64,000 bases of DNA from assembly GCF_028561335.1 (NCBI RefSeq), contig NZ_JAQQTG010000047.1, positions 1-64,000 on the forward strand. The letters run 5' to 3'. Below the pieces are notes generated by a model that had not been told where the DNA came from, made no database searches, and saw nothing but the letters and a program-made list of their open reading frames with translations. Below, piece after piece: positions 4,783-54,452 of this stretch. A program made the translations under genes and the position numbers. The DNA is from Aequorivita todarodis (GTDB taxonomy: Bacteria > Bacteroidota > Bacteroidia > Flavobacteriales > Flavobacteriaceae). Position 1 is the first letter of the stretch. Each line of letters opens with the position of its first letter.

Positions 4783-4996
4783 CCCAGACCCAAACCATTT
4801 GGTGGAATTGGCAAATTATAAAATGCCTTTCGGAAAATACGAAGGCTATTATTTGGCAAACATTCCTGAATATTACTTTGTGTGGTTTAAACAAAAAGGC
4901 TTTCCCGAAGGAAAACTGGGCCGGATGATGGCCGAAATGTACGAGCTTAAATTGAACGGGCTGGAAGGATTGGTGCAGAAGCTTATTAAAAAATAA
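4766..4996 (+). CDS. DUF3820 family small protein
   Basis: A 76-residue cytosolic protein. The core from YKMPFGKYEGYYLANIPEYY to WFKQKGFP is characteristic of DUF3820, a small family often found near nucleases or exonuclease-like domains and of unknown function. The ATG at 4766 overlaps the DUF922 gene; the same frame is open further upstream to 4685, but that part has no family-like sequence. A short heptamer-periodic stretch starts at its stop codon. Confidence 0.8.
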   Translation: MNLGNNPDPNHLVELANYKMPFGKYEGYYLANIPEYYFVWFKQKGFPEGKLGRMMAEMYELKLNGLEGLVQKLIKK

Positions 4997-5029
4997 CTGT
5001 AAGTAGTTGCAGTTGGCTGTTAACTTTGA
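4995..5029. repeat. Weak heptamer-periodic intergenic array
   Basis: Five successive 7-bp units (AACTGTA, AGTAGTT, GCAGTTG, GCTGTTA, ACTTTGA) start at the stop codon of the DUF3820 gene. The units resemble the CAGTTGT/CTGTTAA units at 49069. Periodicity is imperfect, so this locus alone would not be convincing. Confidence 0.35.
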
Positions 5030-5033
5030 TAAT

Positions 5034-6410
5034 TTAAACTTGCAGTTCTCTTATTTCAAATAAATGAGATGCTATTTTCACCTCCTTCAACCTTTTATCT
5101 TCGGGGTTTTTACGCTCCAGTAAAATTTTATCTTTCGGTATATTCAGTAAGGTACTCAGCTTAAAAAGAAGTTCCGTTTGGGTTATTTCCCTGCGTTTGC
5201 TTATAACATTAAAGTTATCTTCAGTACCATTGCCAAACAAATCATTCAGTTTGTTCAAAGGAAGGTAATTGTCCCTATTTTGAACAAGAAACTTCAATAA
5301 ATCGTGCTGTTGTTTGTTCAATCTAATTTCCTGTTTATTGTGATAAAAAACGTTTTCCTTCTCATTAAAAATAATTAAGTTTTTCTTTTGAGTTTGTTTC
5401 TTCAATCGCGTAAATACAAACCAAAAAATCACAATAAAAAATAACCCTGCTAAAACATAAGCATATAAATAATTTTCTTTTTGAACAAATTCCTTTTCAG
5501 ATTCCAGTTTTCCTAAAAAAGAAGTTAATGGTTCGCTCAAAATTTTATATTTACCACTGTTGGTAAGTTTATATGTATAAGTTACCTTTTTGGTTATAGA
5601 GTCATAAACAATGTTCTTAATGCCCTTCCACTCACGGAATGCATATCTTTTAAGAGCATTATTTTTTAAGTCAATCTCATAGATTTTCTCATAAAGCAAA
5701 TACAGTTTGTTTTCCGCATGAAACGAAACATAAGGTTCATTACCTAAGAAAGAAGGATCGTATTTCCCGTAACGGCTCCAACGCATTTTGGGCAAATGTA
5801 GCCGCCATACCGTTTGGTCCTGAACCTTAATGTGTTCTTGCACTTTAAATGGGTTTTTCATCAACCCGTCAAAAACATAGAAATTATCGTCTATAGCTAT
5901 TGAAAAACTTTTAAATCGCGCAGTTGGTTTTGGTTCTATGAAAACTTGTTCCTCAGTCCATTCCCCAATTTTAAAATTGTATTTGGTAATAATATTTTTG
6001 TGGGTAAACAATCCGTAACCTCCAAACAGATAAAAATTCTTGTCAAAAACAAAAGGAGCTGCAAAATACTGGTTCCGCTGTGGGAATGAATTATCTAATC
6101 TGTAAAAGTTATTATCTCTAAATTCCAGTACAGGACCACCGCCATCTGATACTAAATAAGTTTCATTATCTATTTGAAAACTATATGGGTTATCAATATC
6201 TAAACCTTTGAAATCCTTTGATGGTTTTATGGGCAGTTTCTCAAACCCATATCCCTTATAAAGAACCGAATCATTGATTACCAATACGGGTTCATTTGTT
6301 TTGGCATCAAAAAAAAGGAAATGATTCTCGTTAAAAACAGGACTCTCCTGTGCCGACACCGAAGTACTTATGATCGTAAAAAGAAAAATATAGTATAAAA
6401 ACTTGAGCAC
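5034..6410 (-). CDS. Membrane-tethered beta-propeller protein with C-terminal winged-helix-like domain
   Basis: A 458-residue protein with a signal peptide (ends SVSAQE), then about 290 residues rich in aromatic beta-strand repeats resembling a kelch/propeller fold (for example FYLFGGYGLFTHK). One transmembrane helix follows at about 313-333 (LAGLFFIVIFWFVF), then a basic stretch and a cytoplasmic region of about 120 residues. That tail contains LNKQQHDLLKFLVQNRD and NVISKRREITQTELL, which look like a PhoB/ToxR-type winged helix. The inferred role is a one-component sensor reading the periplasm and acting on DNA from the membrane. It faces away from the 6602-8335 genes and is AT-rich relative to guaA and pyrG. 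Confidence 0.7.
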   Translation of the reverse strand: MLKFLYYIFLFTIISTSVSAQESPVFNENHFLFFDAKTNEPVLVINDSVLYKGYGFEKLPIKPSKDFKGLDIDNPYSFQIDNETYLVSDGGGPVLEFRDNNFYRLDNSFPQRNQYFAAPFVFDKNFYLFGGYGLFTHKNIITKYNFKIGEWTEEQVFIEPKPTARFKSFSIAIDDNFYVFDGLMKNPFKVQEHIKVQDQTVWRLHLPKMRWSRYGKYDPSFLGNEPYVSFHAENKLYLLYEKIYEIDLKNNALKRYAFREWKGIKNIVYDSITKKVTYTYKLTNSGKYKILSEPLTSFLGKLESEKEFVQKENYLYAYVLAGLFFIVIFWFVFTRLKKQTQKKNLIIFNEKENVFYHNKQEIRLNKQQHDLLKFLVQNRDNYLPLNKLNDLFGNGTEDNFNVISKRREITQTELLFKLSTLLNIPKDKILLERKNPEDKRLKEVKIASHLFEIRELQV

Positions 6411-6601
6411 GGAATGTTTGGTTAGCTGTAAAGGGCAACTAAATTACTAAAAAATATTAATGCTCCGTTTTATATAAACACATAGTTTTGAGATACTTGC
6501 AAATTTATAGAATATCCGAAAGTATGGTTTCGGATGTTTTTTTGTGAAAGAGGGGATTGAATTTCTAATTTTCGGAGACAAAACATAAATTTTGAAAAAT
6601 T

Positions 6602-6802
6602 ATGAAAAACATAAAATTAATTTGTTGGATTTTGGCCGTAATTGGACCTTTTGTTGGCGGAAGCATGTTTTTGACCGAATCATTTGGAGCTACAACATCT
6701 ATGGAAATTGCCCCAATAGCCGCAGTTTCAATTTTGTTTGCAGTACTTCCTTATTGCTTGGCAAGAGCTATTTCTGAAATTGATAAAATCTCGAACGGAT
6801 GA
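6602..6802 (+). CDS. Small two-helix membrane protein, unknown function
   Basis: A 66-residue hydrophobic protein with two predicted membrane segments (about 5-22 and 35-55) and a short charged tail (SEIDKISNG). It is not recognised as a named family. Its TGA overlaps the ATG of the next gene (ATGA, 6799-6802), which supports that it is translated. It opens a three-gene AT-rich cluster whose members are all unknown. A longer-looking frame starting at 6592 is an out-of-frame shadow. Confidence 0.6.
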   Translation: MKNIKLICWILAVIGPFVGGSMFLTESFGATTSMEIAPIAAVSILFAVLPYCLARAISEIDKISNG

Positions 6803-8127: not shown

Positions 8128-8335
8128 AAGAAAAATGTCAACATATAAAGAATTACAGCTAATGCATAAAAAAAAGTTTGGCAAGACCATTAAATCTTGC
8201 TGGATTGCTGATGTAAAGAGAGAACTAGGATTGATAAAAAGGATTGCCCATAATAGAATAGATTCAAAAAAAGTTAAATATCCTTGTCCTGATGGCGCGC
8301 ATAAAACGTGGCTTATAGAAAAGTTAAAAGAATAA
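8120..8335 (+). CDS. Short hypothetical protein with SCWIADVK and PCPDG motifs
   Basis: A 71-residue basic protein. The pattern is YKELQLMHKKKFGKTIKSC, then WIADVKRELGL, then KYPCPDG, and resembles a family of very short Bacteroidota proteins with TCWIA(D/H)VK and PCP motifs; that likeness is recalled, not tested. No enzymatic motif is visible. An inner ATG at 8135 is an alternative start. It overlaps the lipoprotein gene by 8 bp and ends 3 bp before a heptamer repeat. Confidence 0.6.
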   Translation: MDKRKMSTYKELQLMHKKKFGKTIKSCWIADVKRELGLIKRIAHNRIDSKKVKYPCPDGAHKTWLIEKLKE

Positions 8336-8337
8336 GA

Positions 8338-10098
<1,761 letters not shown>

Positions 10099-10197: not shown

Positions 10198-12084
10198 ATG
10201 GAACAAAAGAAATTCGACTTTAACTCACTTATTGGTTTTTTATTAATCGGCGGTATCCTAATCTGGATGTTGTACCTCAACAAACCTACCGAGGAAGAAA
10301 TACAAGCGGAAAAAGCCAAGACCGAAGCCGCTGCAAAACAAGAGGCAGAAGCTGCAAAACCCACAGATGAAGTTACACTTGCGCAGGCAACTTCAGATAC
10401 AATGAATGCTGTGAAACAAGGTGATTCCCTGGCTTTTGAACAGTTAAAGAACAAGCTCGGTTCTTTTGCGTATTCTGAAACGCTTCCATCGGCAACCGAT
10501 GCCACAACGGTTTTGGAGAACGATGTGCTTTATTTGGAAATAAGCAATAAAGGCGGATACATTACGGAAGCGCTTTTGAAAAATTTCACCAAATATGACT
10601 CCGTTCCAGTGTATTTGATAAAGGATGGAACCGCTTCCTTAAATCTTCAGTTTACGTCAGAAAACCGAACGCTAAACTCACAAGACCTTTATTTTGAACC
10701 TACCTTGAGCAAAAATGGCGAAGACCAAGTGCTCTCCATGAAGCTCAAAACTTCAGAAAACGGATTTATTGAATACCGTTATACCCTGCATCCGGGTGAA
10801 TATATGATGGATTTCAGCATCAACAGCCAGGGCTTGGACGGTATTATCAATACTTCGCAGCCGATGTATCTGGACTGGCAATTAAAGGGCTATCGCCACG
10901 CCAAGAGTATTTCATACGAAAACCGTTATTCGCGTTTAACCTATGAATACGATGACGAAAAGCACTCAAAACTTTCCCCTTCGGGCGAAGATGATGAACT
11001 GGAGAAGGACGTAACCTGGATGAACTTCCGTCAGCATTTCTTCAGCTCCATGCTCCTTACCGATACTCCTTTCAAGGAAGTGAAATTGACTTCCGTTGAT
11101 TTGGTGAAAGACGAAGAAGTGGATACCGTTTTCACAAAACAATACGGAGCAAAGATGCTTTTGGAACCAAAAAATGGGGCGTTGTCGTATAATATGAATA
11201 TGTACTACGGCCCATCCGATTATCAAATTTTCAAAAAATACGGCCGTAATCTGGACGAAGCCATGCCGTTGGGCTGGGGTATTTTTGGGGTGATAAACAA
11301 ATACATTATCATTCCGTTATTCGGCTTTTTAACCGATTTTCTTCCCGCGGGAATAGCCATCATCGTTTTGACGATTCTTATAAAACTTATGCTTTCGCCA
11401 GTGCAGTACAAGCAGTATTTGGCACAGGCGAAGATGAAAGTGCTGAAACCCGAACTCGACGAGATAAAGGAAAAGTATAAAGGCAACAGCTTAAAAATCC
11501 AACAGGAAACCATGAAGCTGCAAAACTCCGCCGGCGCCAGTCCGCTGAAGGGTTGTTTGCCAGCTCTGTTGCAAATTCCGGTGTTTTATGCGCTGTTTAC
11601 GTTCTTCCCCTCGGCTTTTGATTTGCGGCAGAAAAGTTTCCTTTGGGCAGATGACCTTTCCAGTTATGATACCATTGCCGAATTGCCGTTCCACATTCCA
11701 TTTTATGGAGACCACGTGAGCCTCTTCCCTATTTTGGCCTCTATCGCCATTTTTGTTTATATGATGATGACCATGGGCGCAAACATGCAGCAACAGCAGC
11801 AGCCGGGAATGCCGAACATGAAATTCCTTATGTACCTTTCGCCATTGTTTATGTTGGTATTCTTCAACAACTATGCGAGTGGACTTTCGCTGTATTACTT
11901 CGTTTCAAACTTGATTACCATTGGCATTATGCTCGTAATTAAGAATTTCATCATTGATGAGGACAAAATTCACGCTAAAATTCAGGTGAAAAAAGCCACG
12001 CCAAAAAAACAGAACAAGTTCCAGCGCAAAATGGCCGAAATGATGGAACAGGCCGAGCAACAGAAAAAAGCCGGAAAACGTTAG
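10198..12084 (+). CDS. yidC: Membrane protein insertase YidC
   Basis: Inner-membrane insertase that integrates proteins alone or with SecYEG. The 628-residue product has an N-terminal anchor (IGFLLIGGILIWMLYL), a charged Ala/Glu/Lys linker at about 35-75, and the periplasmic beta-sandwich domain at about 100-350. The conserved YidC/Oxa1 membrane core follows at about 375-590 (SPVQYKQYLAQAKMK, GCLPALLQIPVFYALF), then a basic tail expected to bind ribosomes. It lies downstream of pyrG on the same strand; no terminator was seen between them. Confidence 0.96.
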   Translation: MEQKKFDFNSLIGFLLIGGILIWMLYLNKPTEEEIQAEKAKTEAAAKQEAEAAKPTDEVTLAQATSDTMNAVKQGDSLAFEQLKNKLGSFAYSETLPSATDATTVLENDVLYLEISNKGGYITEALLKNFTKYDSVPVYLIKDGTASLNLQFTSENRTLNSQDLYFEPTLSKNGEDQVLSMKLKTSENGFIEYRYTLHPGEYMMDFSINSQGLDGIINTSQPMYLDWQLKGYRHAKSISYENRYSRLTYEYDDEKHSKLSPSGEDDELEKDVTWMNFRQHFFSSMLLTDTPFKEVKLTSVDLVKDEEVDTVFTKQYGAKMLLEPKNGALSYNMNMYYGPSDYQIFKKYGRNLDEAMPLGWGIFGVINKYIIIPLFGFLTDFLPAGIAIIVLTILIKLMLSPVQYKQYLAQAKMKVLKPELDEIKEKYKGNSLKIQQETMKLQNSAGASPLKGCLPALLQIPVFYALFTFFPSAFDLRQKSFLWADDLSSYDTIAELPFHIPFYGDHVSLFPILASIAIFVYMMMTMGANMQQQQQPGMPNMKFLMYLSPLFMLVFFNNYASGLSLYYFVSNLITIGIMLVIKNFIIDEDKIHAKIQVKKATPKKQNKFQRKMAEMMEQAEQQKKAGKR

Positions 12085-12093: not shown

Positions 12094-12128
12094 TAGATTT
12101 AAAATGTTTGAAAATAGATTTTAGATTT
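12094..12128. repeat. Heptamer array (TAGATTT-type), five units
   Basis: Five in-register 7-mers (TAGATTT, AAAATGT, TTGAAAA, TAGATTT, TAGATTT) start 10 bp after the yidC stop codon. A further TAGATTT occurs just upstream, out of register, at 12082. Confidence 0.5.
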
Positions 12129-23095: not shown

Positions 23096-23950
23096 TCACT
23101 TCGGCCCCCTTCTCCTTCGCCCTCCCGTACTTTTTTGCTCCCTCTTTAAATTCCGCTCCGCTTGCCTTTTCTTTTCAGGTTTTAGTGTCTCTACCGCTTT
23201 TTCCCGGCCATCTTTTTGGTAAACCTTTGGCAATCCGTCGCTATCCTTTACCGAATCTTTCAGGGTTTTCAGTTCTTCCGCAGTAAGGTCGCGCCACTGC
23301 CCTTCGGGCAAATCGCCCAATTCCAGATTCATTATCCGAATTCGTTGCAAGGCCACAACTTCATACCCCAAATATTCACACATTCTGCGTATCTGCCTAT
23401 TTAAGCCCTGTACCAATACAATCCGGAATTCAAACCTGCTTATCCGTTCCACTTTACAGCGTTTGGTTACCGTGTCCAAAATAGGGATTCCGGAGCCCAT
23501 CCGTTTTAGAAATTCATCGGTAACGGGCCTATCCACTTTTACAATATATTCCTTTTCGTGTTTGTTGCCGGCGCGCAGAATCTTGTTTACAATATCGCCT
23601 TCATTGGTCAACAATAGTAGGCCCGAACTGGGCTTATCCAATCTTCCCACGGGGAAAATACGTTCGGGATGGTTTATAAAATCCACCACATTATCATCAA
23701 AACGGGTATCGGTTGTACAGGTAATCCCCACGGGTTTGTTCAGCATTATATAGACTTCGGCAGTATTTTCCTTGATGAGTTTTCCGTCCACACGAACCTC
23801 ATCATTGGGCATTACCCGATCTCCCAGCCCACTCTTTTCGCCATTTACGGTTACGCGGCCTTTTTCAATTAAGGTATCGGCCTCGCGGCGCGAACAGTAG
23901 CCGCTATCGCTGATTGCTTTGTTTAGTCGGACGGAATCTGGATGGTGCAT
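23096..23950 (-). CDS. rluF: 23S rRNA pseudouridine synthase, RluF family
   Basis: A 284-residue enzyme of the RsuA/RluB/E/F group that isomerises uridine in 23S rRNA. It has an N-terminal S4 RNA-binding domain ([18 protein letters not shown]) and the catalytic domain with the nucleophile Asp in [18 protein letters not shown]. The basic pattern KNIVxVQG is seen here as [17 protein letters not shown] Lys/Arg-rich C-terminal tail of about 50 residues extends it beyond E. coli RluF. Heptamer repeats fill the gap between it and uvrB upstream. Confidence 0.9.
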
Positions 23951-23956
23951 ATTTTT

Positions 23957-24046
23957 AGTGTTCAGTGTTCAGTGTTCAGTAAATCAGTACGCAGTGGTTA
24001 AATTCAGGGCTCCGTATTGAATTTTGAACCTTAAATCTTGAATTTT
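23957..24046. repeat. Heptamer-register array filling the rluF-uvrB gap
   Basis: Three perfect AGTGTTC units (23957-23977) are followed in the same 7-bp register by AGTAAAT, CAGTACG, CAGTGGT and others. The end of the gap reads CGTATTG, AATTTTG, AACCTTA, AATCTTG, AATTTTT. The array starts 7 bp from the rluF ATG and reaches the uvrB stop codon. The middle units are degenerate. Confidence 0.65.
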
Positions 24047-29147: not shown

Positions 29148-30008
29148 ATGAAGTTTTTGTTTTCAAAGAAGAAAAAGAAGAAGCCTGATTCAACTGCGAG
29201 CGGCATCGGCAATAACGGAAAATCCTGTGCAGTCTATGCGGTTTCGGAAACGGGTCCGGTACGCGACCACAACGAAGACTCCATCGCATTTTCTTTTCCC
29301 GAAAACGACAAAAAAAGCCTTATTGCCGTGGTTGCCGATGGTATGGGCGGACACAAGGCGGGTGAAGTGGCCAGCAAGATGGCCTGCGATTTATTGCTTG
29401 ATTACTGCGTGACAAACTGGAAACAACAAGCTCCGGAAACACTGCTTCAGAATGCGTTTTTAGAAGCACACCAAAATATTATAGCCGCCGGCAATTCAAA
29501 TTCCGAGCAAAAGGGAATGGGCACCACGGCCACCTCGGTGATTATTCAGCAAGATATTTTTTATATAGGGCACATTGGCGATAGTCGTGTTTATATGCTT
29601 CGGAATGGCACGTTGAGGCAATTGAGCACAGACCATACCCTCGTAAATCAAATGTTTGAAGGCGGCGAGATTACAGAAAAAGAACGGGATAACCATCCAA
29701 TGAAAAATGTGTTATTGCAGGCCTTGGGCACTACGCCTACAATCCAACCTCAAATTACGTCTGAGGGATGGGAGATTCGTGAAGGCGACCGTTTGTTGCT
29801 CTGCTCCGATGGGGTGTACGATGCGCTGAGCATGGAAGACATCAAAGACTTACTTTTAATGGAGCAACCTGAATTTGTATTGGAGTGTCTCAGTTCGATG
29901 GCAATCTCCCGCAAGGTATCCGACAATTTCTCCGCTTTGCTTATCGCCATTTCATCGGAAGTTCCCTCAGTTCCTGCGGTTACTAAAGAACATACTATAG
30001 CAAAATGA
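29148..30008 (+). CDS. PP2C-type Ser/Thr protein phosphatase
   Basis: A 286-residue cytoplasmic metal-dependent phosphatase of the PPM/PP2C family. The metal-binding aspartates are in RDHNEDS (about 40-46), VVADGMGGHKAGE (about 63-75), LLCSDGVYDAL and the C-terminal SDNFSALL. A basic Lys-rich head of about 14 residues precedes the domain. Inferred to reverse phosphorylation by the adjacent kinase, whose ATG lies inside its stop codon (ATGA, 30005-30008), giving strict translational coupling. Confidence 0.93.
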   Translation: MKFLFSKKKKKKPDSTASGIGNNGKSCAVYAVSETGPVRDHNEDSIAFSFPENDKKSLIAVVADGMGGHKAGEVASKMACDLLLDYCVTNWKQQAPETLLQNAFLEAHQNIIAAGNSNSEQKGMGTTATSVIIQQDIFYIGHIGDSRVYMLRNGTLRQLSTDHTLVNQMFEGGEITEKERDNHPMKNVLLQALGTTPTIQPQITSEGWEIREGDRLLLCSDGVYDALSMEDIKDLLLMEQPEFVLECLSSMAISRKVSDNFSALLIAISSEVPSVPAVTKEHTIAK

Positions 30009-31789
30009 GCAGACAAGGAAGTCAATATGAAATTATCCAAAAGCTCGGAGAAGGCGGCATGGGAACGGTGTATCTGGCAAAAGATACCATGATTGACAGA
30101 TTGGTTGCCATAAAGCAACTTCACCGAAATACGGGTTCAGAAGAAGAAAGTCTGGGAGAACGTTTTCAGGCAGAAGCACTCGCCCTGGCAAAACTGAACC
30201 ATCTCAATGTAACCCATCTTTATTCCTTCATTCCTCAGGAAGATACCTATTGGATGGTCATGGAATACGTGGAAGGAAAGACCCTCGAAGAATGGCTTTT
30301 TATCCATAAAAAAATTACCCACCAGCTTGCGGCGAGTATTGCAGTGCAAATGCTCGACGGGTTGTACCACGCACACCGCAAGGGCATCATTCACCGCGAT
30401 ATCAAGCCTGCCAATGTGATGATTAATGAAGAAGGTGAGGTAAAGATCATGGACTTCGGCATCGCAAGAATGCGCAATGCACAGCGCATTACCAGTCACG
30501 GGAAATCCGTAGGGACCTTAGAGTATATGGCACCAGAACAAATTCAAGGCCATGAAGGCGACGAGCGAACAGACGTCTATGCCGTGGGCAATATGCTGTA
30601 CGAAATGCTCTGCGGCTCCCCTCCCTTTCACAGCGATACCGATTATAGTTTGATGAAGGACAAACTGGAGAAACGGCCGGAATCTATCCTTCGGGAAAAC
30701 CCCACCGTTCCTAATTCACTTGAGAAAATTATTTTTAAGGCATTGGACCGCAATCCGAAAAAAAGATACCAGTCTGCCAAGGAAATGAAATCGGCCATTG
30801 AGAAATGTCTGGATGGCGCACTGCTCGATCACGCTACACTCACTAAAGTGCTTCGGGCTTCACAGGTTTTTACAGAGCCCGAAAAAGGAAACGAAATCAT
30901 CTCTGTCAGCAAGATTTTGTCCCGGGCGAAAGCGATCTCGGGAAGGTTTAAAGTTCCCGCTGTGGGAAATCTCAAGATCCCTGCATTTAGTAAGTTCAAT
31001 AGGTCTTTACTCATTCTTGGAGCCTCGGTACTTGTGTGCGCAATCCTTTTGGTTTGGAATGGAGGAACAGATACCGCCGACACGGAAGAAATATCCGAAA
31101 CCCCTGTTATTACCTGGGAAGCGCCTACGGATGAGCCAGAAGAGGTTGTTTCGAATCAAACAACGGGCAATTTTGAGGAAACGCCCAGCGAGATGTACCG
31201 TCGTATTGCTGGGCAAAAGCAACACGAGGAAAAAGCAAAACCCAAAGAGAAACGGAACAACAGTGAAAAAACGATTGAGAATGACCGATCGGTCAGTAAG
31301 CCATCGAACACATCCAAACCAACCGAAAGCAATGAACGCAATGAACACAATGAACGCAATGAACGCAATGAACGCAATGAACGCAATGAAAATATAGATA
31401 AAAAACGCATCGTTCCACAAACCCCTGTGGACGTTCCTGCGGGAAAAACAATTCTTGTAACCTTAAGGGAAGATATCACTTCGGAAGAAAAAGAGCGGGA
31501 CGGAAAGTTTGTTCGGCTCACTTGCAATGAAGATGTGGTTGCGGAAAACAGGATTATTATTCGTAAAGGCGCGGCGGTAACGGGAAAGATTGTGGACTGC
31601 GTACCGTCAAACGACCGAAAGAAAGCTTTAATTGGCTTTGTAATCCTGTGGGTGGAAGCAGTGGACGGAAGCACCGTGAAATTAAAGTCGGAACGGTTTC
31701 GCTTATATGCCGATGAGCCCGGAACTGCCGTAAAATATCGTTCCGGCCAGACTTTTGAAGCAAAATTGCGGCGAGGCAGCGTCCAATAG
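30005..31789 (+). CDS. Transmembrane Ser/Thr protein kinase
   Basis: A 594-residue PknB/Hanks-type kinase. The cytoplasmic kinase domain (about 8-270) has the Gly-loop LGEGGMGTVYLA, the VAIK lysine, catalytic Asp132 in IIHRDIKPANVM, MDFGIARM and YMAPEQIQGHEGDERTDVYA. A membrane helix follows at about 334-352 (LLILGASVLVCAILLVW). The predicted periplasmic part has a charged linker with a 9-bp repeat coding Asn-Glu-Arg. A C-terminal beta-rich domain (about 478-594, starting VPAGKTILVTLREDI) is of a type recalled from other secreted proteins but not named here. It closes the FHA-PP2C-kinase cluster. Confidence 0.92.
   Translation: MSRQGSQYEIIQKLGEGGMGTVYLAKDTMIDRLVAIKQLHRNTGSEEESLGERFQAEALALAKLNHLNVTHLYSFIPQEDTYWMVMEYVEGKTLEEWLFIHKKITHQLAASIAVQMLDGLYHAHRKGIIHRDIKPANVMINEEGEVKIMDFGIARMRNAQRITSHGKSVGTLEYMAPEQIQGHEGDERTDVYAVGNMLYEMLCGSPPFHSDTDYSLMKDKLEKRPESILRENPTVPNSLEKIIFKALDRNPKKRYQSAKEMKSAIEKCLDGALLDHATLTKVLRASQVFTEPEKGNEIISVSKILSRAKAISGRFKVPAVGNLKIPAFSKFNRSLLILGASVLVCAILLVWNGGTDTADTEEISETPVITWEAPTDEPEEVVSNQTTGNFEETPSEMYRRIAGQKQHEEKAKPKEKRNNSEKTIENDRSVSKPSNTSKPTESNERNEHNERNERNERNERNENIDKKRIVPQTPVDVPAGKTILVTLREDITSEEKERDGKFVRLTCNEDVVAENRIIIRKGAAVTGKIVDCVPSNDRKKALIGFVILWVEAVDGSTVKLKSERFRLYADEPGTAVKYRSGQTFEAKLRRGSVQ
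31331..31393 (+). repeat. 9-bp tandem repeat AATGAACGC inside the kinase gene
   Basis: Seven in-frame copies (the second reads AATGAACAC, the last partial) encode a run of Asn-Glu-Arg triplets in the extracytoplasmic linker of the kinase. Copy-number change would keep the reading frame and alter linker length only. Confidence 0.85.
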
Positions 31790-44212: not shown

Positions 44213-45514
44213 TTAAACCACCTCCGCGTAAAGATCAAAATCTTCGGCGGCCGTAATTTTCACAGTACAGAATTCGCCGGTTCGCAGATAGCCTTCTTCG
44301 GCATTGATCAATACTTCGTTGTCCACGTCGGGACTGTCAAATTCGGTTCTTCCCACAAAATAGCCGCCTTCCTTACGGTCTATCACTACTTTGAATTCCT
44401 TTCCTATTTTCTGTTGGTTCAATTCCCAAGAAATTTGCGACTGTATTTCCATAATCTGGTTGGCGCGATCCATTTTAACCTCTTCCGGCACGTCATCCTC
44501 AAGATTGTAGGCGTGCGTATTTTCTTCGTGGGAATAGGTAAAACAACCCAAACGCTCAAAGCGCATCTCTTTTACCCATTGATTTAGGGTTTGGAAATCT
44601 TCGTCAGTCTCCCCCGGATAGCCGACGATTAACGTGGTTCTGATTGCCATTTCTGGAACTGCCGCTCTAAATTCTTCCAACAATTTGGTAGTCTTCGCTT
44701 TGGTAGTTCCTCGGCGCATCGATTTCAAAATAGAATCTGAAATGTGCTGCAGCGGAATATCCAGATAATTACAAATCTTGGGCTCGGTGCGCATCACTTC
44801 CAATACATCCATCGGGAAACCCGTTGGGAAGGCGTAGTGCAAACGGATCCATTCAATCCCTTCAACCCCTGCGAGCTTGCGAAGCAGCCTCGCCAATGCA
44901 CGCTCCTTATATAAATCCAATCCGTAATACGTTAAATCCTGTGCAATCAAAATCAATTCTTTCACCCCTTTTGCGGCAAGTTTTTCGGCTTCCGTTACCA
45001 AATCCTCCATTGGGGTGCTTCGGTGCTTTCCGCGCATAATGGGGATTGCGCAAAATGAACAAGGCCGATCGCAGCCTTCGGCTATTTTGAAATAGGCATA
45101 ATTTTTTGGGGTAGTTGTAATTCGTTCGCCAATCAACTCGTGTTTGTAATCGGCGCCAAGCGCTTTTAAAAGTCCGGGAAGTTCGGTAGTGCCAAAATAT
45201 TCATCCACATTCGGGATTTCCTTTTGCAGATCTGGCTTGTACCTTTCCGAAAGACAGCCCGTAACAAAAACCTTGTCCACCAAACCCTCTTCTTTTTTCT
45301 GCACAAATTCGAGAATGGTATTTATACTTTCCTCTTTTGCATTGTTTATAAACCCGCAGGTGTTTATTACCACAATATTCCCTTCCTCTTCGTGCACTAC
45401 CTCTTTATTGCTGGCGCGCAACTGGCCCATCAGCACTTCGCTGTCATAGACATTCTTGGAGCAGCCTAAGGTTACTACGTTAATTTTGTTTTTCTTTAGG
45501 GTTTTGGTGCGCAT
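44213..45514 (-). CDS. rimO: Ribosomal protein S12 methylthiotransferase RimO
   Basis: Radical-SAM enzyme that adds a methylthio group to an aspartate of ribosomal protein S12. The 433-residue product has the N-terminal UPF0004 domain with cluster cysteines in LGCSKNVYDSE, INTCGFI and TGCLSERY, the radical-SAM CxxxCxxC in GCDRPCSFCAIPIMRG, and a C-terminal TRAM domain. Its own promoter box lies about 100 bp upstream. The gap to the S9 peptidase gene holds a long heptamer array starting 3 bp before the ATG. Confidence 0.95.
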   Translation of the reverse strand: MRTKTLKKNKINVVTLGCSKNVYDSEVLMGQLRASNKEVVHEEEGNIVVINTCGFINNAKEESINTILEFVQKKEEGLVDKVFVTGCLSERYKPDLQKEIPNVDEYFGTTELPGLLKALGADYKHELIGERITTTPKNYAYFKIAEGCDRPCSFCAIPIMRGKHRSTPMEDLVTEAEKLAAKGVKELILIAQDLTYYGLDLYKERALARLLRKLAGVEGIEWIRLHYAFPTGFPMDVLEVMRTEPKICNYLDIPLQHISDSILKSMRRGTTKAKTTKLLEEFRAAVPEMAIRTTLIVGYPGETDEDFQTLNQWVKEMRFERLGCFTYSHEENTHAYNLEDDVPEEVKMDRANQIMEIQSQISWELNQQKIGKEFKVVIDRKEGGYFVGRTEFDSPDVDNEVLINAEEGYLRTGEFCTVKITAAEDFDLYAEVV

Positions 45515-45516
45515 TG

Positions 45517-45600
45517 TTGAATTTTGAATTTACGAATTACGATTTACGAATTTTGAATTTTGAATTTTGAGTTTTGAATTTTGAATTTTGAATTTTGAAT
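45517..45600. repeat. Heptamer array, 12 in-register units (TTTGAAT-type)
   Basis: Read in the + direction: two TTGAATT, then TACGAAT, TACGATT, TACGAAT, then seven TTTGAAT/TTTGAGT units, all in a strict 7-bp register with no indels. It begins 2 bp beyond the rimO start codon. This is the longest heptamer tract of the window. Confidence 0.9.
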
Positions 45601-45613
45601 TTTTAAAAGCGTG

Positions 45614-45621
45614 CAAAGATA
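45614..45621 (-). promoter_or_regulatory. -7 promoter box of rimO
   Basis: The minus strand reads TATCTTTG followed by CACG, matching TAnnTTTG. The transcript would include the whole heptamer array in its leader. Confidence 0.6.
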
Positions 45622-45657: not shown

Positions 45658-45685
45658 ACTGCCAACTGCGACTGAACACTGCGAC
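45658..45685. repeat. Heptamer array (ACTGCGA-type), four units
   Basis: ACTGCCA, ACTGCGA, CTGAACA, CTGCGAC in one 7-bp register. On the minus strand the units read as CAGT-containing heptamers like those at 23957 and 47634. The gap to the S9 peptidase ATG is 48 bp. Confidence 0.6.
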
Positions 45686-45732: not shown

Positions 45733-47631
45733 ATGAAAAAAATATCCTTTCTGCTGGCCTTTCTCTGTGCCGGCTTCCTGTTCGCACAAAAAACAATGAC
45801 ACCCGAGCTTTTATGGCAGGTGAAAAAAGTTAGTCCGATTGGAATTTCCGACAACGGCGAAGTGCTTTTTTACAAAGTTACCACCCCAAATATGGAAGAA
45901 AACAGCTTCGACTCTAAGTATTACGCCATGCGCGTTTCGGGAGGTAATTTTGCCGAGGTTACTAAAGAAGAAGCCAAGGTTGCCGATAAAAACCTTTCCC
46001 CAAACGGGCAGTATCTTTTGCTGAACAAACCCGTTCACGTAAAGGATGTAACCGGAAAAGACATTTACAAAGATTTGCCGAAAAGCGATGCCTACGTTTA
46101 TACTTCTTTGGACTACCGTCATTGGGACACGTGGAATGACGGCAGCTACAACCACGTTTTCTATAAAGATGTGAACACTGGCGTTGAAACTGACATTATG
46201 CCAAAACAACCCTATTATACACCACAGGCTCCTTTTGGCGGCGATGAGGATTATATCTGGGGCCCGAAAGGGGAAAACATCTATTACGTAAGCAAGAAGC
46301 TGGCAGGTACTGAATATGCCGTTAGCACCAATACGGATATTTACAAATTTAATTTGGCCGATAGAAAAACTGAAAATATAACCGAGGAAAACAAAGGGTA
46401 CGACACCCAGCCGGCATTTTCAAAAGCTGGGGCTTTGGCCTATTTACAGATGAAAACCCCCGGCTATGAAGCTGATAAAAATGATATTATAGTGCTTCAA
46501 GATGGCGTAAAGCAAAATCTTACTTCACAATGGGATGGAACGGTAAACGGATTTCTTTGGGCAAACAATGCTAAGGATATTTATTTTACCGCTCCCGTTG
46601 ATGGAACGCAACAAATCTTCAAAGTTGACTATCCTGGAAAAACCCGAAAAATGGCAGTGGTTGAGCAACTTTCAAAAGGACAGTTTGACGTTACGGGCAT
46701 TGTTGCCGAAATAAACGGGCAATTGATTGTTACGAGAACCGATATGAACCATGCTTCGGAAATTTTCTCTTTTGATTTGAAGAGCAAAACCTTTAAACAG
46801 CTTACGCAGGTAAACAATGAATTCTACGGAAAACTTGATTTGCCGACCGTTGAAAAGCGAATGGTTACCACAAAAGACGGCAAACAGATGTTGGTTTGGG
46901 TAATTCTTCCACCAAACTTCGATAAAAACAAAAAGTATCCAACCTTGCTTTATGCGCAGGGCGGGCCGCAATCGGCCTTGTCGCAATTTTATTCCTTTCG
47001 CTGGAATTTCCAGTTAATGGCTTCAGAGGGATATATAATTGTAGCACCCAACCGTCGGGGAATGCCCGGCCACGGCGTGGAATGGAATGCCGAAATAAGC
47101 GGCGATTGGGGCGGTGGCGCGATGCAGGATTACCTTGATGCCATTGACGCTATTGCCAAAGAACCGTATGTTGACAAAGACCGTCTGGGTGCCGTAGGCG
47201 CTAGTTTTGGGGGTTATTCCGTGTTTTGGCTTGCCGGAAATCACGATGGACGTTTCAAAACCTTTATTGCCCACGACGGCGTATTTGACACCCGCGCTAT
47301 GTACGGAACCACCGAGGAACTCTTCTTCGTAAACCACGATATGGGCGGGGCTTATTGGGAAAAGGATAATGCCACTGCACAAAAATCTTTTAACGAATTC
47401 AACCCAATAACCTATGTTGACAAATGGGACACGCCCATTATGATCGTGCAGGGCGGAAAAGATTACCGCGTACCGATTGAGCAGGGATTGGGTGCTTTCC
47501 AAGCGGCGCAGCTAAAGGGAATAAAAAGCAAATTGCTATATTTTCCCGAAGAAAACCATTGGGTATTGCAGCCGCAGAATGCACTTGTTTGGCAACGGGA
47601 GTTTTTTGATTGGTTAAAGGAAACGCTTTAA
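45733..47631 (+). CDS. S9 family prolyl-oligopeptidase-like serine peptidase
   Basis: A 632-residue secreted peptidase with a signal peptide (ends GFLFAQ). An N-terminal beta-propeller (about 25-380) is followed by an alpha/beta-hydrolase domain with nucleophile Ser491 in VGASFGGYS, the Asp near 577 in VQGGKDYRVP and His near 609 in PEENHWVLQ. Members remove dipeptides or act as acylaminoacyl peptidases; the exact specificity is unknown. It stands between rimO and the ftsY cluster, oriented opposite to both, and is flanked by heptamer arrays at both ends. Confidence 0.92.
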   Translation: MKKISFLLAFLCAGFLFAQKTMTPELLWQVKKVSPIGISDNGEVLFYKVTTPNMEENSFDSKYYAMRVSGGNFAEVTKEEAKVADKNLSPNGQYLLLNKPVHVKDVTGKDIYKDLPKSDAYVYTSLDYRHWDTWNDGSYNHVFYKDVNTGVETDIMPKQPYYTPQAPFGGDEDYIWGPKGENIYYVSKKLAGTEYAVSTNTDIYKFNLADRKTENITEENKGYDTQPAFSKAGALAYLQMKTPGYEADKNDIIVLQDGVKQNLTSQWDGTVNGFLWANNAKDIYFTAPVDGTQQIFKVDYPGKTRKMAVVEQLSKGQFDVTGIVAEINGQLIVTRTDMNHASEIFSFDLKSKTFKQLTQVNNEFYGKLDLPTVEKRMVTTKDGKQMLVWVILPPNFDKNKKYPTLLYAQGGPQSALSQFYSFRWNFQLMASEGYIIVAPNRRGMPGHGVEWNAEISGDWGGGAMQDYLDAIDAIAKEPYVDKDRLGAVGASFGGYSVFWLAGNHDGRFKTFIAHDGVFDTRAMYGTTEELFFVNHDMGGAYWEKDNATAQKSFNEFNPITYVDKWDTPIMIVQGGKDYRVPIEQGLGAFQAAQLKGIKSKLLYFPEENHWVLQPQNALVWQREFFDWLKETL

Positions 47632-47633: not shown

Positions 47634-47673
47634 AGTCGGTAGTCGGTAGTCGGTAGTCGGTAGTCGGTAGTCG
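47634..47673. repeat. Perfect heptamer array AGTCGGT, 5.7 copies
   Basis: Five perfect AGTCGGT units plus AGTCG start 3 bp after the S9 peptidase stop codon. Identical units argue for recent expansion by slipped-strand copying. Confidence 0.9.
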
Positions 47674-47700
47674 AAAAAATGCAACCACGAATTATTTAAT

Positions 47701-47737
47701 AACCTGCAAGGTTTCCAAAATCTTGTAGGTTTTTTTA
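47701..47737 (+). terminator. Intrinsic terminator of the S9 peptidase gene
   Basis: Arms AACCTGCAAG/CTTGTAGGTT (one G-T wobble) flank an 11-base loop and run into seven T. Confidence 0.8.
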
Positions 47738-48110: not shown

Positions 48111-49064
48111 TTATTTGAAAAAAGAATCCACAAATTCAAACTTATTGAAAACCTGAAGATCTTCCATTCCCTCGCCCACGCCAATATATTTCACGGGAAT
48201 TTTAAACTGATCGCTGATGCCGATAACCACGCCGCCTTTGGCAGTTCCGTCGAGTTTTGTGACTGCAAGTGAAGTTACTTCTGTTGCGGCGGTAAACTGT
48301 TTGGCCTGTTCAAAAGCATTCTGACCTGTAGAACCATCCAATACCAAAAGTACATCGTGCGGCGCATCGGGCACAACCTTTTGCATCACGCGCTTCACTT
48401 TTGTAAGCTCGTTCATCAAGTTTACCTTATTGTGAAGGCGTCCTGCGGTATCAATGATAACTACGTCGGCATTTTGTGTTACGGCGCTTTGTAGCGTATC
48501 AAAAGCTACGCTGGCAGGGTCGCTGCCCATACTTTGTTTTACGATGGAAACATCGGTTCTATCGGCCCAAATTTGCAGTTGGTCAATTGCCGCAGCACGG
48601 AAAGTGTCCGCTGCGCCCAAAACTACTTTCTTTCCAGCTTTTTTAAACTGATATGCAAGCTTCCCGATGGTCGTAGTTTTTCCAACCCCATTTACACCAA
48701 CCACCATAATCACGTAGGGTTTTTTGTTCTCGGGCACCTCAAACTCGGTGGCGTTGCCGGAATCTATTTCGCTTAAAAGCCCTGCTATTTCCTCACGGAG
48801 AATTTTGTTCAATTCATCGGTGCCCAAGTATTTATCCTTTGCAACCCGATCCTCAATCCTATCGATTATTTTTAAGGTGGTATTTACCCCAACATCGCTG
48901 GAAACGAGCACTTCTTCCAAATTGTCCAAAACGTCATCGTCAACCTTGCTTTTTCCCGCAACGGCTTTGCTCAGCTTATCAAAAAAGGAAGTCTTGGTTT
49001 TTTCAAGACCTTTATCGAGGGTTTCCTTTTTTTCTTTTGAAAATATATTTTTAAAAAAACTCAT
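48111..49064 (-). CDS. ftsY: Signal recognition particle receptor FtsY
   Basis: Membrane-associated GTPase that docks SRP-ribosome complexes at SecYEG. The 317-residue product has a short charged head (no long acidic A domain as in E. coli), the N helical bundle, and the G domain with P-loop GVNGVGKTTTIGKLA, DTFRAAA, DTAGR and TKLDGTAKGG. The heptamer array starts 5 bp before its ATG, and two dispersed-type hairpins lie further upstream. Confidence 0.97.
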   Translation of the reverse strand: MSFFKNIFSKEKKETLDKGLEKTKTSFFDKLSKAVAGKSKVDDDVLDNLEEVLVSSDVGVNTTLKIIDRIEDRVAKDKYLGTDELNKILREEIAGLLSEIDSGNATEFEVPENKKPYVIMVVGVNGVGKTTTIGKLAYQFKKAGKKVVLGAADTFRAAAIDQLQIWADRTDVSIVKQSMGSDPASVAFDTLQSAVTQNADVVIIDTAGRLHNKVNLMNELTKVKRVMQKVVPDAPHDVLLVLDGSTGQNAFEQAKQFTAATEVTSLAVTKLDGTAKGGVVIGISDQFKIPVKYIGVGEGMEDLQVFNKFEFVDSFFK

Positions 49065-49068: not shown

Positions 49069-49103
49069 CAGTTGTCTGTTAATGGTTGTCAGTTGTCCTG
49101 TTT
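49069..49103. repeat. Heptamer array (CAGTTGT-type), five units
   Basis: CAGTTGT, CTGTTAA, TGGTTGT, CAGTTGT, CCTGTTT in one register, starting 5 bp before the ftsY ATG. It occupies the ftsY leader. Confidence 0.6.
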
Positions 49104-49447: not shown

Positions 49448-49455
49448 GACTTATA

Positions 49456-49638: not shown

Positions 49639-49665
49639 TGTAACAGACTTTATTGATTATTGCAA

Positions 49666-49905: not shown

Positions 49906-49940
49906 TCCTTAACCTTTTTAAGTTATTTTAAAACAGGGTG

Positions 49941-49971
49941 CAAATGTAAATAATTCTTTTGTGATGTACAA
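49941..49971 (-). promoter_or_regulatory. Full Bacteroidota promoter of the rpmB operon
   Basis: On the minus strand TTG (49969-49971), a 20-bp spacer and TACATTTG (49941-49948) match the -33/-7 consensus of the primary sigma factor. It is the best complete promoter in the window. Confidence 0.78.
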
Positions 49972-49981
49972 CAAAGAGAAA

Positions 49982-51229: not shown

Positions 51230-51230
51230 G

Positions 51231-51572: not shown

Positions 51573-51574
51573 TT

Positions 51575-52186: not shown

Positions 52187-52193
52187 CTTGCAA

Positions 52194-52967: not shown

Positions 52968-52984
52968 GGTTTTGTTTTGTGGTG

Positions 52985-52992
52985 CAAAGATA
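52985..52992 (-). promoter_or_regulatory. -7 promoter box of the dnaQ-FAH-hpt-cinA operon
   Basis: The minus strand reads TATCTTTG followed by CACC, matching TAnnTTTG, 17 bp before the ATG at 52967. Confidence 0.65.
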
Positions 52993-53027
52993 CTTTTTAT
53001 TGAAGTTTTGAAGGCGCAATAAAAAAG

Positions 53028-53059
53028 AAAAGGGGATTTTAAAACCAAAATCCCCTTTT
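53028..53059 (-). terminator. Intrinsic terminator of the E2 gene
   Basis: Arms AAAAGGGGATTTT/AAAATCCCCTTTT (13 bp, perfect) flank a six-base loop; the minus-strand tail is TTTTCTTTTTT. It separates the E2 gene from the dnaQ operon. Confidence 0.87.
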
Positions 53060-53078
53060 CCGCTATTATACTTATAGA

Positions 53079-54422
53079 TTAAATTTCTCTGTTAACATCC
53101 CAAGCCTCCAAGTAATCAGCCACCCGCTTTACGAATTGGCCGCCCAAAGCCCCGTTTACCACTCTGTGGTCGTAGCTATGCGAAAGGAACATTTTATAAC
53201 GAATACCGATGAAATCTCCCTCGGGAGTCTCAATAACCGCCGGCACTTTTCGGATCGCTCCCAAAGCTAAAATGCCCACTTGCGGCTGGTTGATTATTGG
53301 CGTTCCCATAATGCTTCCAAATGTCCCTACATTGGTAACTGTATAGGTTCCGCCTTGTATGTCATCCGGTTTCAGTTTGTTTTCGCGGGCACGGGTTGCA
53401 AGGTCGTTCACCGCTTTGCTCATTCCCACCAAATTCAGTCGGTCTGCATTTTTTATAACTGGAACTATCAAGTTTCCGTCCGGAAGGGCTGCCGCCATTC
53501 CCAAGTTTATATTTTTCCGTTTTATTATTTTGTCGCCATCAACCGCAATATTCATCATCGGGAAGTCTTTCAATGCTTTCGCTACGGCTTCCATAAATAT
53601 TGGGGTGAAAGTTAAGTTTTCCCCCTCGCGTTGGGCGAAACCATTTTTTACTTTATTCCTCCAGTTCCAAACATTGGTAACATCGCACTCCACAAACGAC
53701 TGCACGTGCGCGGAAGTCTGCGTGCTTTCAATCATGTGGTGGGCTATTAGCTTGCCCATTCGGGTCATTTCCACAATTTCGTCCTCCCCGTTTACCGAAA
53801 CTGAAGCCTTTGGCTTTGCAGCTTCTTCTTTTTTAGTTTCAACAACGGTTTGTGGCTGCGGCTGCTGCGGTTGCGTTTTCGCGGAAGACCGGTTTTCCAC
53901 ATACGCCAAAATATCATTTTTGGTTACACGACCCTCCTTTCCAGTACCGGAAATTCCGTCAAGTTCCGTTTGCGAGATACCTTCAGCAGCGGCAATATTC
54001 TTAACCAATGGCGAATAGAAACGGTCGCCCGTATTTTCAATGGGCGTTTGGGTGGTCTGTTTGGCTGTTTCAACTTGCTTTTCAACTTCTTTAACTGCAG
54101 TCTCTGCAGTTTTTGCAGCATCGGGAACAACTTCAGGTGAAGCAGCGCTTTCGGCAACAGCTTTTTCCGTTCCGTTGCTTCCGGCAGTTTCAATTATAGC
54201 GATGGTCTGGCCTACTTGCACCACATCGTCAACGTTAAAAAGCTTTTCAACCAAAACCCCATCTACCTCGCTGGGCACTTCGCTGTCCACCTTATCGGTA
54301 GCAATTTCCAGCACAGCTTCATCGGCCTCAATGGTGTCTCCCACTTCCTTTAGCCAGTTAGTTAAGGTTGCCTCCGCAACGCTTTCGCCCATCTTGGGTA
54401 GTTTCAATTCAAATTTTGCCAT
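53079..54422 (-). CDS. 2-oxo acid dehydrogenase E2 component (dihydrolipoamide acyltransferase)
   Basis: A 447-residue E2 subunit. One lipoyl domain (about 1-78, lipoyl Lys in EIATDKVDSEV), an Ala/Glu/Lys-rich linker, a peripheral subunit-binding domain (about 130-168, FYSPLVKNIAAAEGIS) and the catalytic domain (about 215-447). The active-site motif reads SHSYDHRVVNGALGG: His419 is present but the usual Asp of HRxxDG is Asn423. Gene context does not tell whether it serves the branched-chain, 2-oxoglutarate or pyruvate complex; the single lipoyl domain and sequence favour the branched-chain type. Confidence 0.88.
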   Translation of the reverse strand: MAKFELKLPKMGESVAEATLTNWLKEVGDTIEADEAVLEIATDKVDSEVPSEVDGVLVEKLFNVDDVVQVGQTIAIIETAGSNGTEKAVAESAASPEVVPDAAKTAETAVKEVEKQVETAKQTTQTPIENTGDRFYSPLVKNIAAAEGISQTELDGISGTGKEGRVTKNDILAYVENRSSAKTQPQQPQPQTVVETKKEEAAKPKASVSVNGEDEIVEMTRMGKLIAHHMIESTQTSAHVQSFVECDVTNVWNWRNKVKNGFAQREGENLTFTPIFMEAVAKALKDFPMMNIAVDGDKIIKRKNINLGMAAALPDGNLIVPVIKNADRLNLVGMSKAVNDLATRARENKLKPDDIQGGTYTVTNVGTFGSIMGTPIINQPQVGILALGAIRKVPAVIETPEGDFIGIRYKMFLSHSYDHRVVNGALGGQFVKRVADYLEAWDVNREI

Positions 54423-54424
54423 TG

Positions 54425-54452
54425 GATTTAAAGTTCAAGATTTAAAATTCAA
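54425..54452. repeat. Heptamer array (GATTTAA/AATTCAA), four units
   Basis: GATTTAA, AGTTCAA, GATTTAA, AATTCAA in register, starting 3 bp before the E2 ATG. Its complement gives TTGAATT, TTAAATC, TTGAACT, the same units as at 24017. Confidence 0.7.

Follow-up and report, generated by a model that had tools for sequence, protein, structure and literature searches.

Why should tandem arrays of seven-base units lie against the start and stop codons of bacterial genes? The question is raised by a 64,000-nt stretch of the Aequorivita todarodis genome (contig NZ_JAQQTG010000047.1, positions 1–64,000; hereafter the window; source genome 3.33 Mb in 51 contigs), in which an original prediction, made from the sequence alone, described nine period-7 stretches about 2–10 bp from a neighbouring start or stop codon. 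These were regarded as one class of dispersed repeat with two recurring unit types, comparable to the short tandemly repeated repetitive (STRR) sequences of cyanobacteria, which are heptanucleotide repeats, and their preference for gene boundaries was left unexplained. The analysis reported here indicates that the arrays are probably heptanucleotide satellites that arose through slippage of strands during copying, preferably in steps of seven bases. A preference for length seven, a large variety of units, whole-unit differences at orthologous sites and, in the gaps compared, a location in the slot between a coding edge and the promoter or terminator are all directly observed. In addition, one family of units, built on a CAGT core, nearly always points outward from the neighbouring gene, a feature that had not been noticed in the original prediction.

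Length seven is strongly preferred in intergenic DNA

A sample of the genome (41 stretches including the window, 697,558 bp or 21% of the total) was divided into coding and intergenic DNA with a simple purpose-made gene caller, giving 435 intergenic regions of 75,048 bp in all. Period-7 arrays were scored 69 times, in 65 of these regions, compared with 0.85 in shuffled sequence. Exact 10-base matches in the intergenic DNA at lags of 7, 14, 21 and 28 numbered 66, 62, 39 and 28, against 0.3–0.6 over 50 shuffles; lags 8 and 16 gave 11 and 13 matches, and lags 9 and 17 gave none. Likewise, only 19 arrays were scored at period 8, and between 1 and 5 at each of the periods 5, 6, 9, 10 and 11. Three stretches (L013, L017 and L021) had been chosen for their AGTCGGT arrays, and a separate count was hence made without these and without the window; this unpicked set held 53 arrays in 62 kb, or 8.6 per 10 kb. 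Chance as the source of the arrays is excluded by the shuffles at the level of lag matches, of scored arrays and of single stretches, the last by comparing the lag-7 score with 2,000 dinucleotide shuffles of the same stretch. Coding sequence contains few period-7 arrays, and the 11 cases of period 21 found there were rejected as a trace of heptamers because periods 15 and 18 were raised too (9 and 7 cases).

At least three copies were present in 61 of the 69 arrays, and at least ten in 17. Repeats of two copies only were about equally frequent at periods 7 and 8 (11 and 10, with 2.25 each in shuffles), whereas longer arrays numbered 51 at period 7 and 11 at period 8. The corresponding counts from congeners were 9 and 6 for two-copy repeats versus 32 and 3 for longer arrays. 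Growth is thus a more length-selective step than seeding.

The excess over shuffled intergenic DNA extends beyond the source genome: twenty congeners, covered by 27–40 kb each, contained 43 period-7 arrays versus about 2.4 in shuffles, and 3 at period 8. In 71 further loci, mostly from Flavobacteriaceae, 82 kb held 32 period-7 and 15 period-8 arrays; twenty Bacteroidota genomes sampled at 20 kb each had 6 period-7 arrays in 81 kb, and none was found in 23.8 kb of intergenic DNA from Escherichia coli K-12. Among the genomes sampled, a high heptamer load is a mark of the Aequorivita lineage. Some draft contigs break inside arrays (G016:C61 and G016:C42 begin or end within one, and G004:C15 has an N in one; loci L242, L244 and L253), and draft assemblies therefore probably undercount them.

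The period-8 arrays represent a second, rarer class, several of them TAAACTTT-like, and occur in L010, L016, L019–L021, L032, L033, L036–L038 and L040–L042. In some gaps a period-8 array lies beyond a CAGT heptamer array (L038:1253/1313 and L021:12526/12579).

The arrays are thus real, dispersed and dominantly of 7 bp, as had been claimed, but they do not make up one sequence class: 51 distinct canonical units occur among the 69 arrays, and it is the unit length that stays constant. Units average 33% G+C and contain few G-runs. As regards the two unit types originally distinguished, CAGTnnn units do form a true family in which the core is conserved, and TTGAATT is one of many A/T-rich units. 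AGTCGGT forms five arrays: one is that of the window, and the other four come from the stretches chosen because they hold this unit. A general unit design of fixed core and variable spacer was considered and rejected (3.88 variable columns against 3.864 expected, with 50 of 131 arrays usable).

Arrays lie against the edges of genes

Position was assessed by random placement of the arrays within their own gaps in 5,000 trials. Among the 59 testable arrays (of 69), 31 had a called start or stop codon no more than 8 bp away, where 10.5 were expected and no placement reached 31; starts accounted for 16 of these and stops for 15. The unpicked set gave 22 of 44 testable arrays (of 53; 7.65 expected, 0 of 5,000 placements), and the twenty congeners gave 26 of 43 arrays (5.8 expected). 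The absence of any excess near codon boundaries had been named beforehand as the outcome that would speak against the predicted boundary preference; the excess was found.

No Shine-Dalgarno signal was detected: AGGAG occurs once in 612 stretches upstream of start codons and once in 604 stretches downstream of stop codons. The bases beside the start codon would therefore be free to change. Seeding of arrays by duplication of the stop codon was rejected, since among 775 edges only 37 have the same stop triplet again at +7, no clear excess over the 29.5 expected.

Array slots in the window

The arrays of the window, and the elements that limit two of them, are listed by position.

8337–8351, plus strand: GGCAGTA, 2.1 copies, CAGT family, just after the stop codon (8335) of an open reading frame of 71 amino acids
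8382–8411, plus strand: TTGGAAT, 4.3 copies, in the same gap as the 8337 array, upstream of a TACCTTTG box
12094–12128, plus strand: weak TAGATTT-type units after the stop codon at 12084 (lag-7 p = 0.019)
23954–23980, CAGT on the plus strand, away from the gene: TTCAGTG, 3.4–4 copies, CAGT family, in the leader of the minus-strand pseudouridine-synthase gene 23096–23950
45517–45606: TTTGAAT/TACGAAT array of 12–13 units in the 5′ leader of the minus-strand gene 44213–45514, between its ATG and the −7 box
45613–45621, minus strand: TATCTTTGC, read as a −7 promoter box of Bacteroidota type, which bounds the array slot on its outer side
45658–45685, CAGT reading on the minus strand: ACTG motifs at 6–7 bp spacing, upstream of the plus-strand gene 45733–47631
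47634–47673, plus strand: AGTCGGT, 5.7 perfect copies, 2 bp after the stop codon of 45733–47631 (lag-7 p = 0.0005)
47700–47737, plus strand: hairpin with a predicted stem of 14 bp, and T-run, bounding the 47634 slot on its outer side
49069–49103, leader of the minus-strand gene 48111–49064: degenerate CAGTTGT/TGGTTGT heptamers, with CAGT outward on the plus strand
54425–54452, leader of the minus-strand gene 53079–54422: two 14-bp copies, made up of GATTTAA, AGTTCAA, GATTTAA and AATTCAA

Four of the nine predicted stretches are strong (8338, 23957, 45517 and 47634) and four weaker (12094, 45658, 49069 and 54425), and for the ninth, 4995–5029, period 7 was not supported (lag-7 p = 0.25). The stretch 8338–8409 (p = 0.0015) is in fact composed of two short arrays, 8337–8351 and 8382–8411, and 23957–24046 (p = 0.0005) holds a clear array only at 23954–23980. 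For 49069–49103 and 54425–54452, lag 7 gave p = 0.08 and 0.06, and lag 14 gave p = 0.01 and 0.0005, respectively. Tandem Repeats Finder reproduced the 5.7 perfect copies at 47634 (100% matches) and, for 45517–45600 (lag-7 p = 0.0005), gave a clear array of 12.3 copies (87% matches, 2% indels); the arrays at 23957, 8337 and 8382 were detected by it as short ones. Distances of about 2–10 bp are right for most arrays (2 bp at 45517, 47634, 54425 and 8337) but not for 45658–45685 (lag-7 p = 0.05), which does not lie at a gene edge. The ACTG motifs at 45658, possibly a seed of the CAGT family, have counterparts in many congeners, with a 13-unit array there in G005. Together with the period-7 arrays in orthologous gaps at 49069 and 54425, described below, this lends some support from relatives to three of the four weaker stretches. 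No tRNA was found in the window by ARAGORN. A 9-bp repeat, GAACGCAAT in 7.3 copies, is located at 31325–31390 within the open reading frame 30005–31789.

The gap at 45515, ahead of a gene that appears RimO/MiaB-like from its domains, illustrates the slot. Its outer limit, TATCTTTGC, reads GCAAAGATA on the other strand and is presumably the −7 box of the leftward gene, going by the consensus TAnnTTTG. GCAAAGATA is exact in 19 of 20 genomes at this gap, G004 having a match with one mismatch only. It stands 21–133 bp from the start codon, and 21–22 bp in five array-free genomes (G019, G021, G022, G009 and G001); across the 20 genomes, codon-side arrays always stop short of the box. On the other side of the neighbouring gene, the 47634 array is situated between the stop codon and the terminator-like hairpin at 47700–47737, a putative intrinsic terminator by reading, with which the array did not pair in the predicted fold; other inverted repeats were seen by eye at the same position in congeners. 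In the gap 49906–49981, which has a fixed length (75–78 bp in 18 congeners), no array was found in any of them. The boundary preference is thereby accounted for, at least partly, by tolerance of length change between the codon and the promoter or terminator.

Neighbouring genes were scanned at the ends of arrays (twenty genes, being 18 of 27 start-edge genes plus two window genes, with four of the twenty lying in the window) and are, by names taken from domains, mostly housekeeping or metabolic. Besides the RimO/MiaB-like gene they comprise a putative FtsY-like gene (48111–49064; SRP54 domains), a probable 2-oxoacid dehydrogenase E2 (53079–54422), a RecN-like gene, histidyl- and cysteinyl-tRNA synthetases, a Mur ligase, Obg, an IGPS and a PALP enzyme; exceptions are a gene for a Wzt-like ABC transporter, another for a DUF4252 protein and a third that matched no family. 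The trait of contingency loci, a repeat beside variable surface or modification genes, was not found in these twenty. Separately, CACGAATTCACGAAT occurs ten times in the genome (contigs C7, C8, C44 and C48–C50), including two facing pairs about 30 bp apart that resemble a recurrent terminator stem.

Whole-unit differences and reuse of sites between species

The protein of 45733–47631 is 87–92% identical to proteins of Aequorivita and of two unclassified Flavobacteriaceae, and 83–93% identical in all but one of the 27 other genomes in the genus, the exception, G017, giving distant matches only. Comparison of orthologous gaps between species revealed copy-number shifts by whole units at three sites. 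The 45517 array measures 90 bp in the source genome, 55 bp in G012 and 41 bp in G002, in steps of 7; a GTTAAGT array measures 87, 73 and 136 bp in the same order; and the 47634 array has 5.7 copies versus 4.7 in G026, other congeners having other heptamers or none.

Sites are also reused with different units, as observed in the 45515 and 47632 gaps, the trp gap and the L018 gap. The trp gap contains, depending on the species, CAAGAAA with CACGACT, ACTCAAT, CTCAATA, CGATTAA, ATTAACG, TACTCAA, CGACTCA and others. With the source genome included in each case, an array is present at 11 of 14 loci of the trp gap, 7 of 14 of the L018 gap and 3 of 10 of the L017 gap (10 of whose 14 loci were compared). 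At the L017 stop edge the source genome carries 13 copies of TCAGTAG and G008 nine of CAGTAAG; a short, imperfect copy takes its place in some array-free species (TTTCAGTATTGAGTAAAA in G012), and nothing resembling an array or a short copy was found in G023, G025 and G026. Similarly, period-7 arrays occur in 8 of 18 orthologous gaps at the 49065 edge of the FtsY-like gene and, with other heptamers, in 3 of 18 at the 54423 gap.

The CAGT family has a conserved core and mostly points outward

Four consecutive CAGTNNN units were found in 24 of the 28 genomes of the genus (703 overlapping hits), compared with 9 of 28 for the same-composition core GCATNNN (71 hits) and 12 of 28 for TACGNNN (43 hits). 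The reversed control TGACNNN gave 270 hits in the genus but is not independent, as TCAGTAG arrays hold TGAC on the other strand. In these searches and in that of the phylum, where CAGTNNN ×4 was present in 116 of 296 Bacteroidota genomes, hits overlap inside long arrays, and the totals 703, 71, 43 and 270, like the array totals given above for the twenty Bacteroidota genomes and for the congeners, were summed by hand from tables. TGACNNN ×4 gave more than 100 hits in each of six genomes (G326, G147, G155, G170, G213 and G135), four of them without a CAGT hit, and is there another heptamer core in other Bacteroidota genera.

The core varies less than the spacer. In 13 arrays found by lag 7 and not by the core, 15 changes fell in the core and 32 in the spacer (p = 0.0006), with 4, 5, 2 and 4 variants in the columns of CAGT and 11, 14 and 7 in those of the spacer; the arrays are not fully independent, four coming from one orthologous gap and three from G005, and CAGT was the one family subjected to this comparison. 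Three different spacers were present in 45 of 90 CAGT arrays of the phylum, 14 of 55 of the genus and 0 of 18 GCAT arrays, among the matches listed.

Polarity was scored at 40 genus loci holding 43 CAGT arrays, drawn from 55 separable places among the matches listed for genomes G001–G005 (24 of the 40 from G004). At any distance, 34 of 42 point outward; 26 lie within 15 bp of an edge, where stops have 19 outward and 1 inward and starts 5 and 1. In other genera (20 loci in ten genomes) the counts within 20 bp are 13 and 2 at stops and 5 and 0 at starts, both inward cases belonging to L298, where the called gene crosses the array. Combined, 42 of 46 arrays near edges point outward (32 of 35 at stops and 10 of 11 at starts, with ACTG toward the start), the definitions being CAGTNNN ×4 within 15 bp for the genus and at least three CAGT at 6–8 bp spacing within 20 bp for the other genera. 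No report of an outward rule at both kinds of edge was found in the literature searched, which is no proof of its absence.

Three origins of the polarity were considered. Outside scored arrays, CAGT pairs at 6–8 bp spacing are outward in 31 cases versus 6, and single TCAGT motifs in 91 versus 62 (38:28 at stops, 53:34 at starts); a property of the single motif was rejected, the lone TCAGT being only weakly outward. Base composition could contribute at start edges, where the outward strand is G/T-rich in 22 cases versus 4 among the 27 array ends no farther than 15 bp from a start, and array-free edges are so too, to a lesser degree (65% of 329), but not at stop edges, where arrays of all families show no G/T bias (14 versus 16). 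Remains of gap-wide hairpins were rejected because partner arms are lacking in the genus: the 25 Aequorivita gaps with a CAGT array show no excess of a facing partner, the remaining 3,678 bp holding ACTG 8 times and CAGT 27 times.

In the other genera, all 8 loci with at least two CAGT arrays have them facing each other, a called gene crossing one or both arrays at two of these (L297 and L305). The facing-array loci that were folded form predicted stems, with z = −8.7 at L306, around a terminator-like hairpin, and −3.9 to −4.4 at three others. Facing arrays as candidate stem arms in genomes G224 and G180 are located as follows.

L306:995–1128
L304:960–1020
L308:990–1078

Arrays at both gap ends, with copies that look inverted by eye, were also seen at about 8320–9860 in L072, L083, L073, L116 and L127, three of which are from Flavobacterium.

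Origin of the arrays

Slipped-strand copying would account for the majority of these observations. A chance pair of similar 7-mers would seed an array, to which slippage would add, or from which it would remove, units of seven and less often eight bases, a loop size beyond MutS–MutL repair; the same repair would keep repeats of 1–4 bp rare. Point mutation followed by renewed slippage could swap one unit for another, such that species come to differ in the heptamer at one site. As coding sequence, promoters and terminators would reject insertions while start-adjacent bases would be free, arrays would accumulate against gene edges, and most of them would have no effect on the gene. Loops of more than about 4 nt generally escape mismatch repair of this kind, and MutS1 and MutL matches over the cut-off are present in this genome. 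Such a loop-size limit would explain the rarity of short periods; it does not explain the choice of 7 over 5, 6, 9 or 10. In G015 the mutS1 match is in two pieces (G015:C15:663792–666354), whereas each of the 19 other genomes searched gave one match over the cut-off.

Several results weigh against slippage as the whole account. In G011 and G003 a further array is located beyond the −7 box of the 45515 gap, and across the sample TAnnTTTG boxes are not significantly avoided by arrays (overlap in 3 of 17 cases against 4.1 expected). Stop edges show as large an excess as start edges, so that freedom from a Shine-Dalgarno sequence can be only part of the reason for the position. Among 1,708 orthologous gap pairs, indels anchored by their flanks do not peak at 7 (distinct inserts numbering 8 at 7, 10 at 8, 12 at 10 and 8 at 14), although the congeners may be too divergent for this comparison. 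An identical twin elsewhere exists for 27 of the 69 arrays (10.5 expected, standard deviation 4.8), and searches with three array regions recovered identical units elsewhere in the source species and in others, at loci that are not orthologous and over as much as 134 bp with 100% identity; blind slippage does not predict such recurrence at unlinked places. Finally, slippage leaves the constraint on the CAGT core and the outward polarity unexplained. Because the core is more constant than the spacer and is directed outward, some constraint beyond slippage probably acts on a short CAGT seed at gene edges.

One reading of that constraint is that CAGTNNN arrays are functional sites at which a regulator binds DNA or RNA by reading CAGT every seven bases. 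We know of no protein that binds CAGT arrays, and no search was made for one. The idea agrees with the conserved core (15 against 32 changes), the excess of CAGT over GCAT hits (703 against 71), the polarity (42 of 46) and the array at the edge of the FtsY-like gene in 8 of 18 congeners. However, mRNA would read ACTG at starts and CAGT at stops, which a single RNA-binding protein would not fit, the neighbouring genes have no common theme, and presence at one edge differs between close species. The regulator is accordingly regarded as unlikely overall; the equivalent suggestion has been made by MacGregor for TAACTGA in Beggiatoaceae (PMC4679880, in the passages available).

Quite improbably, a Bacteroidota process that measures seven bases and senses direction could write CAGTNNN outward from start and stop edges and so mark or bracket genes at the DNA level, for example via templated extension of outward-facing 3′ ends. 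A specific version, to which we assign still less weight, has a telomerase-like short-template polymerase writing heptamers on outward 3′ ends such as those of intergenic breaks, so that the rejoined gap is bracketed by outward arrays. Outward polarity at both kinds of edge, the 8 facing loci of other genera, unit lengths of 7 and 8 and the G/T-rich outward strand at start edges (22 versus 4) would all follow. The stop-edge arrays of all families, with 14 versus 16, do not share that bias; the promoter box was kept in the 45515 gap, an array thus having been gained without its loss; and in Aequorivita the 25 CAGT arrays tested at one edge of a gap have no facing partner in that gap.

Equally little credence is given to a dispersed element, whereby arrays are copied between loci by recombination or by a mobile element. 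In its favour, one unit recurs between unlinked loci and across species, over as much as 134 bp with 100% identity, and a similar A-rich CTAAACTTT stretch follows some TCAGTAG arrays of different species (L243 and L251, which may be orthologous loci). Conversely, the flanks of the five AGTCGGT arrays share nothing evident by eye save an A-run on one side in three, perfect arrays are uninformative on copying, and 51 distinct units make up 69 arrays. Phase variation, with arrays that tune or switch expression like the 7-bp promoter repeats of Haemophilus influenzae hmw, is scarcely credible even though arrays stand between promoter box and start codon in several leaders and copy number varies between species, given that the neighbours are mostly housekeeping genes and many arrays follow stops (15, against 16 at starts, within 8 bp).

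Comparison with known heptanucleotide repeats

The likeness to known heptanucleotide repeats of the STRR kind, as first proposed, is borne out by the period-7 excess and by the intergenic, dispersed location. The present arrays share with the heptanucleotide long simple sequence repeats (LSSR) and STRR far-above-chance 7-nt tandems, which are intergenic, dispersed and changing by whole units. Seven-nucleotide units are the most abundant longer-unit class in most such genomes (Mrazek 2007, as cited in the available parts of PMC4679880 and PMC4692102), and Calothrix heptanucleotides are likewise cited in PMC4692102. In distinction to the LSSR there described, dozens of units coexist here in one genome, and the available text names no Bacteroidota among the ten richest genomes.

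Closest in sequence are the TAACTGA repeats, the reverse complement of which, TCAGTTA, is one CAGTNNN member. According to the available passages of MacGregor 2015 (PMC4679880), they are intergenic and near start codons, F. litoralis having one set reversed just after a stop; A. sublithincola is listed for TAACTGA with other heptamers beside, and Cyanothece strains differ mostly by 7-nt steps. The BOGUAY sets comprise 147 toward a start and 12 toward a stop, of 170, a table that on our reading fits the outward rule, whereas a Microcystis sample has mixed orientation and does not match it (PMC4679880). The prevailing orientation at start codons is found here too (10 of 11 start edges). Unlike published TAACTGA, the spacer bases here vary within and between arrays, and the CAGT edge arrays of the genus are mostly at stops (20, with 6 at starts, from 40 loci). 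No TAACTGA tandem was found in the window with one mismatch allowed, and an exact doublet was present in 1 of 314 loci; the window arrays are thus not TAACTGA repeats, though the CAGT family includes that unit.

Other systems agree in fewer respects, as far as the available text of each source goes. The Xanthomonas and Nostoc GGGAATC/GGGGAYT repeats are also heptameric, intergenic and of different length in related species, but are potential G-quadruplex formers (PMC4692102), unlike the Aequorivita units with their 33% G+C and few G-runs. Heptamer-derived satellites, e.g. of Chloroflexus, scatter a single unit per species (PMC6749651), where Aequorivita has many. The hmw repeats of H. influenzae are similarly 7-bp tandem units upstream of genes, but those genes encode putatively phase-variable adhesins (PMC2651432), while the Aequorivita neighbours are mostly housekeeping.

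In the literature found, itself available in part, Aequorivita heptamers are mentioned in passing only. A preference for 7 in longer-unit bacterial repeats has been noted since 2007, together with a polymerase-footprint idea for which the available passages give no test (PMC4679880, PMC4692102). In combination, most of the phenomenon is an extreme case of the known heptanucleotide slippage repeats. What these repeats leave unexplained is why one length is selected and, more than anything, why a family with a conserved core points outward across Bacteroidota. The abundance of arrays in Aequorivita, and the reuse of sites by different units, make step size, seeding and growth directly measurable, and the CAGT polarity is a quantitative regularity, testable in complete genomes, that any account of such repeats must cover.

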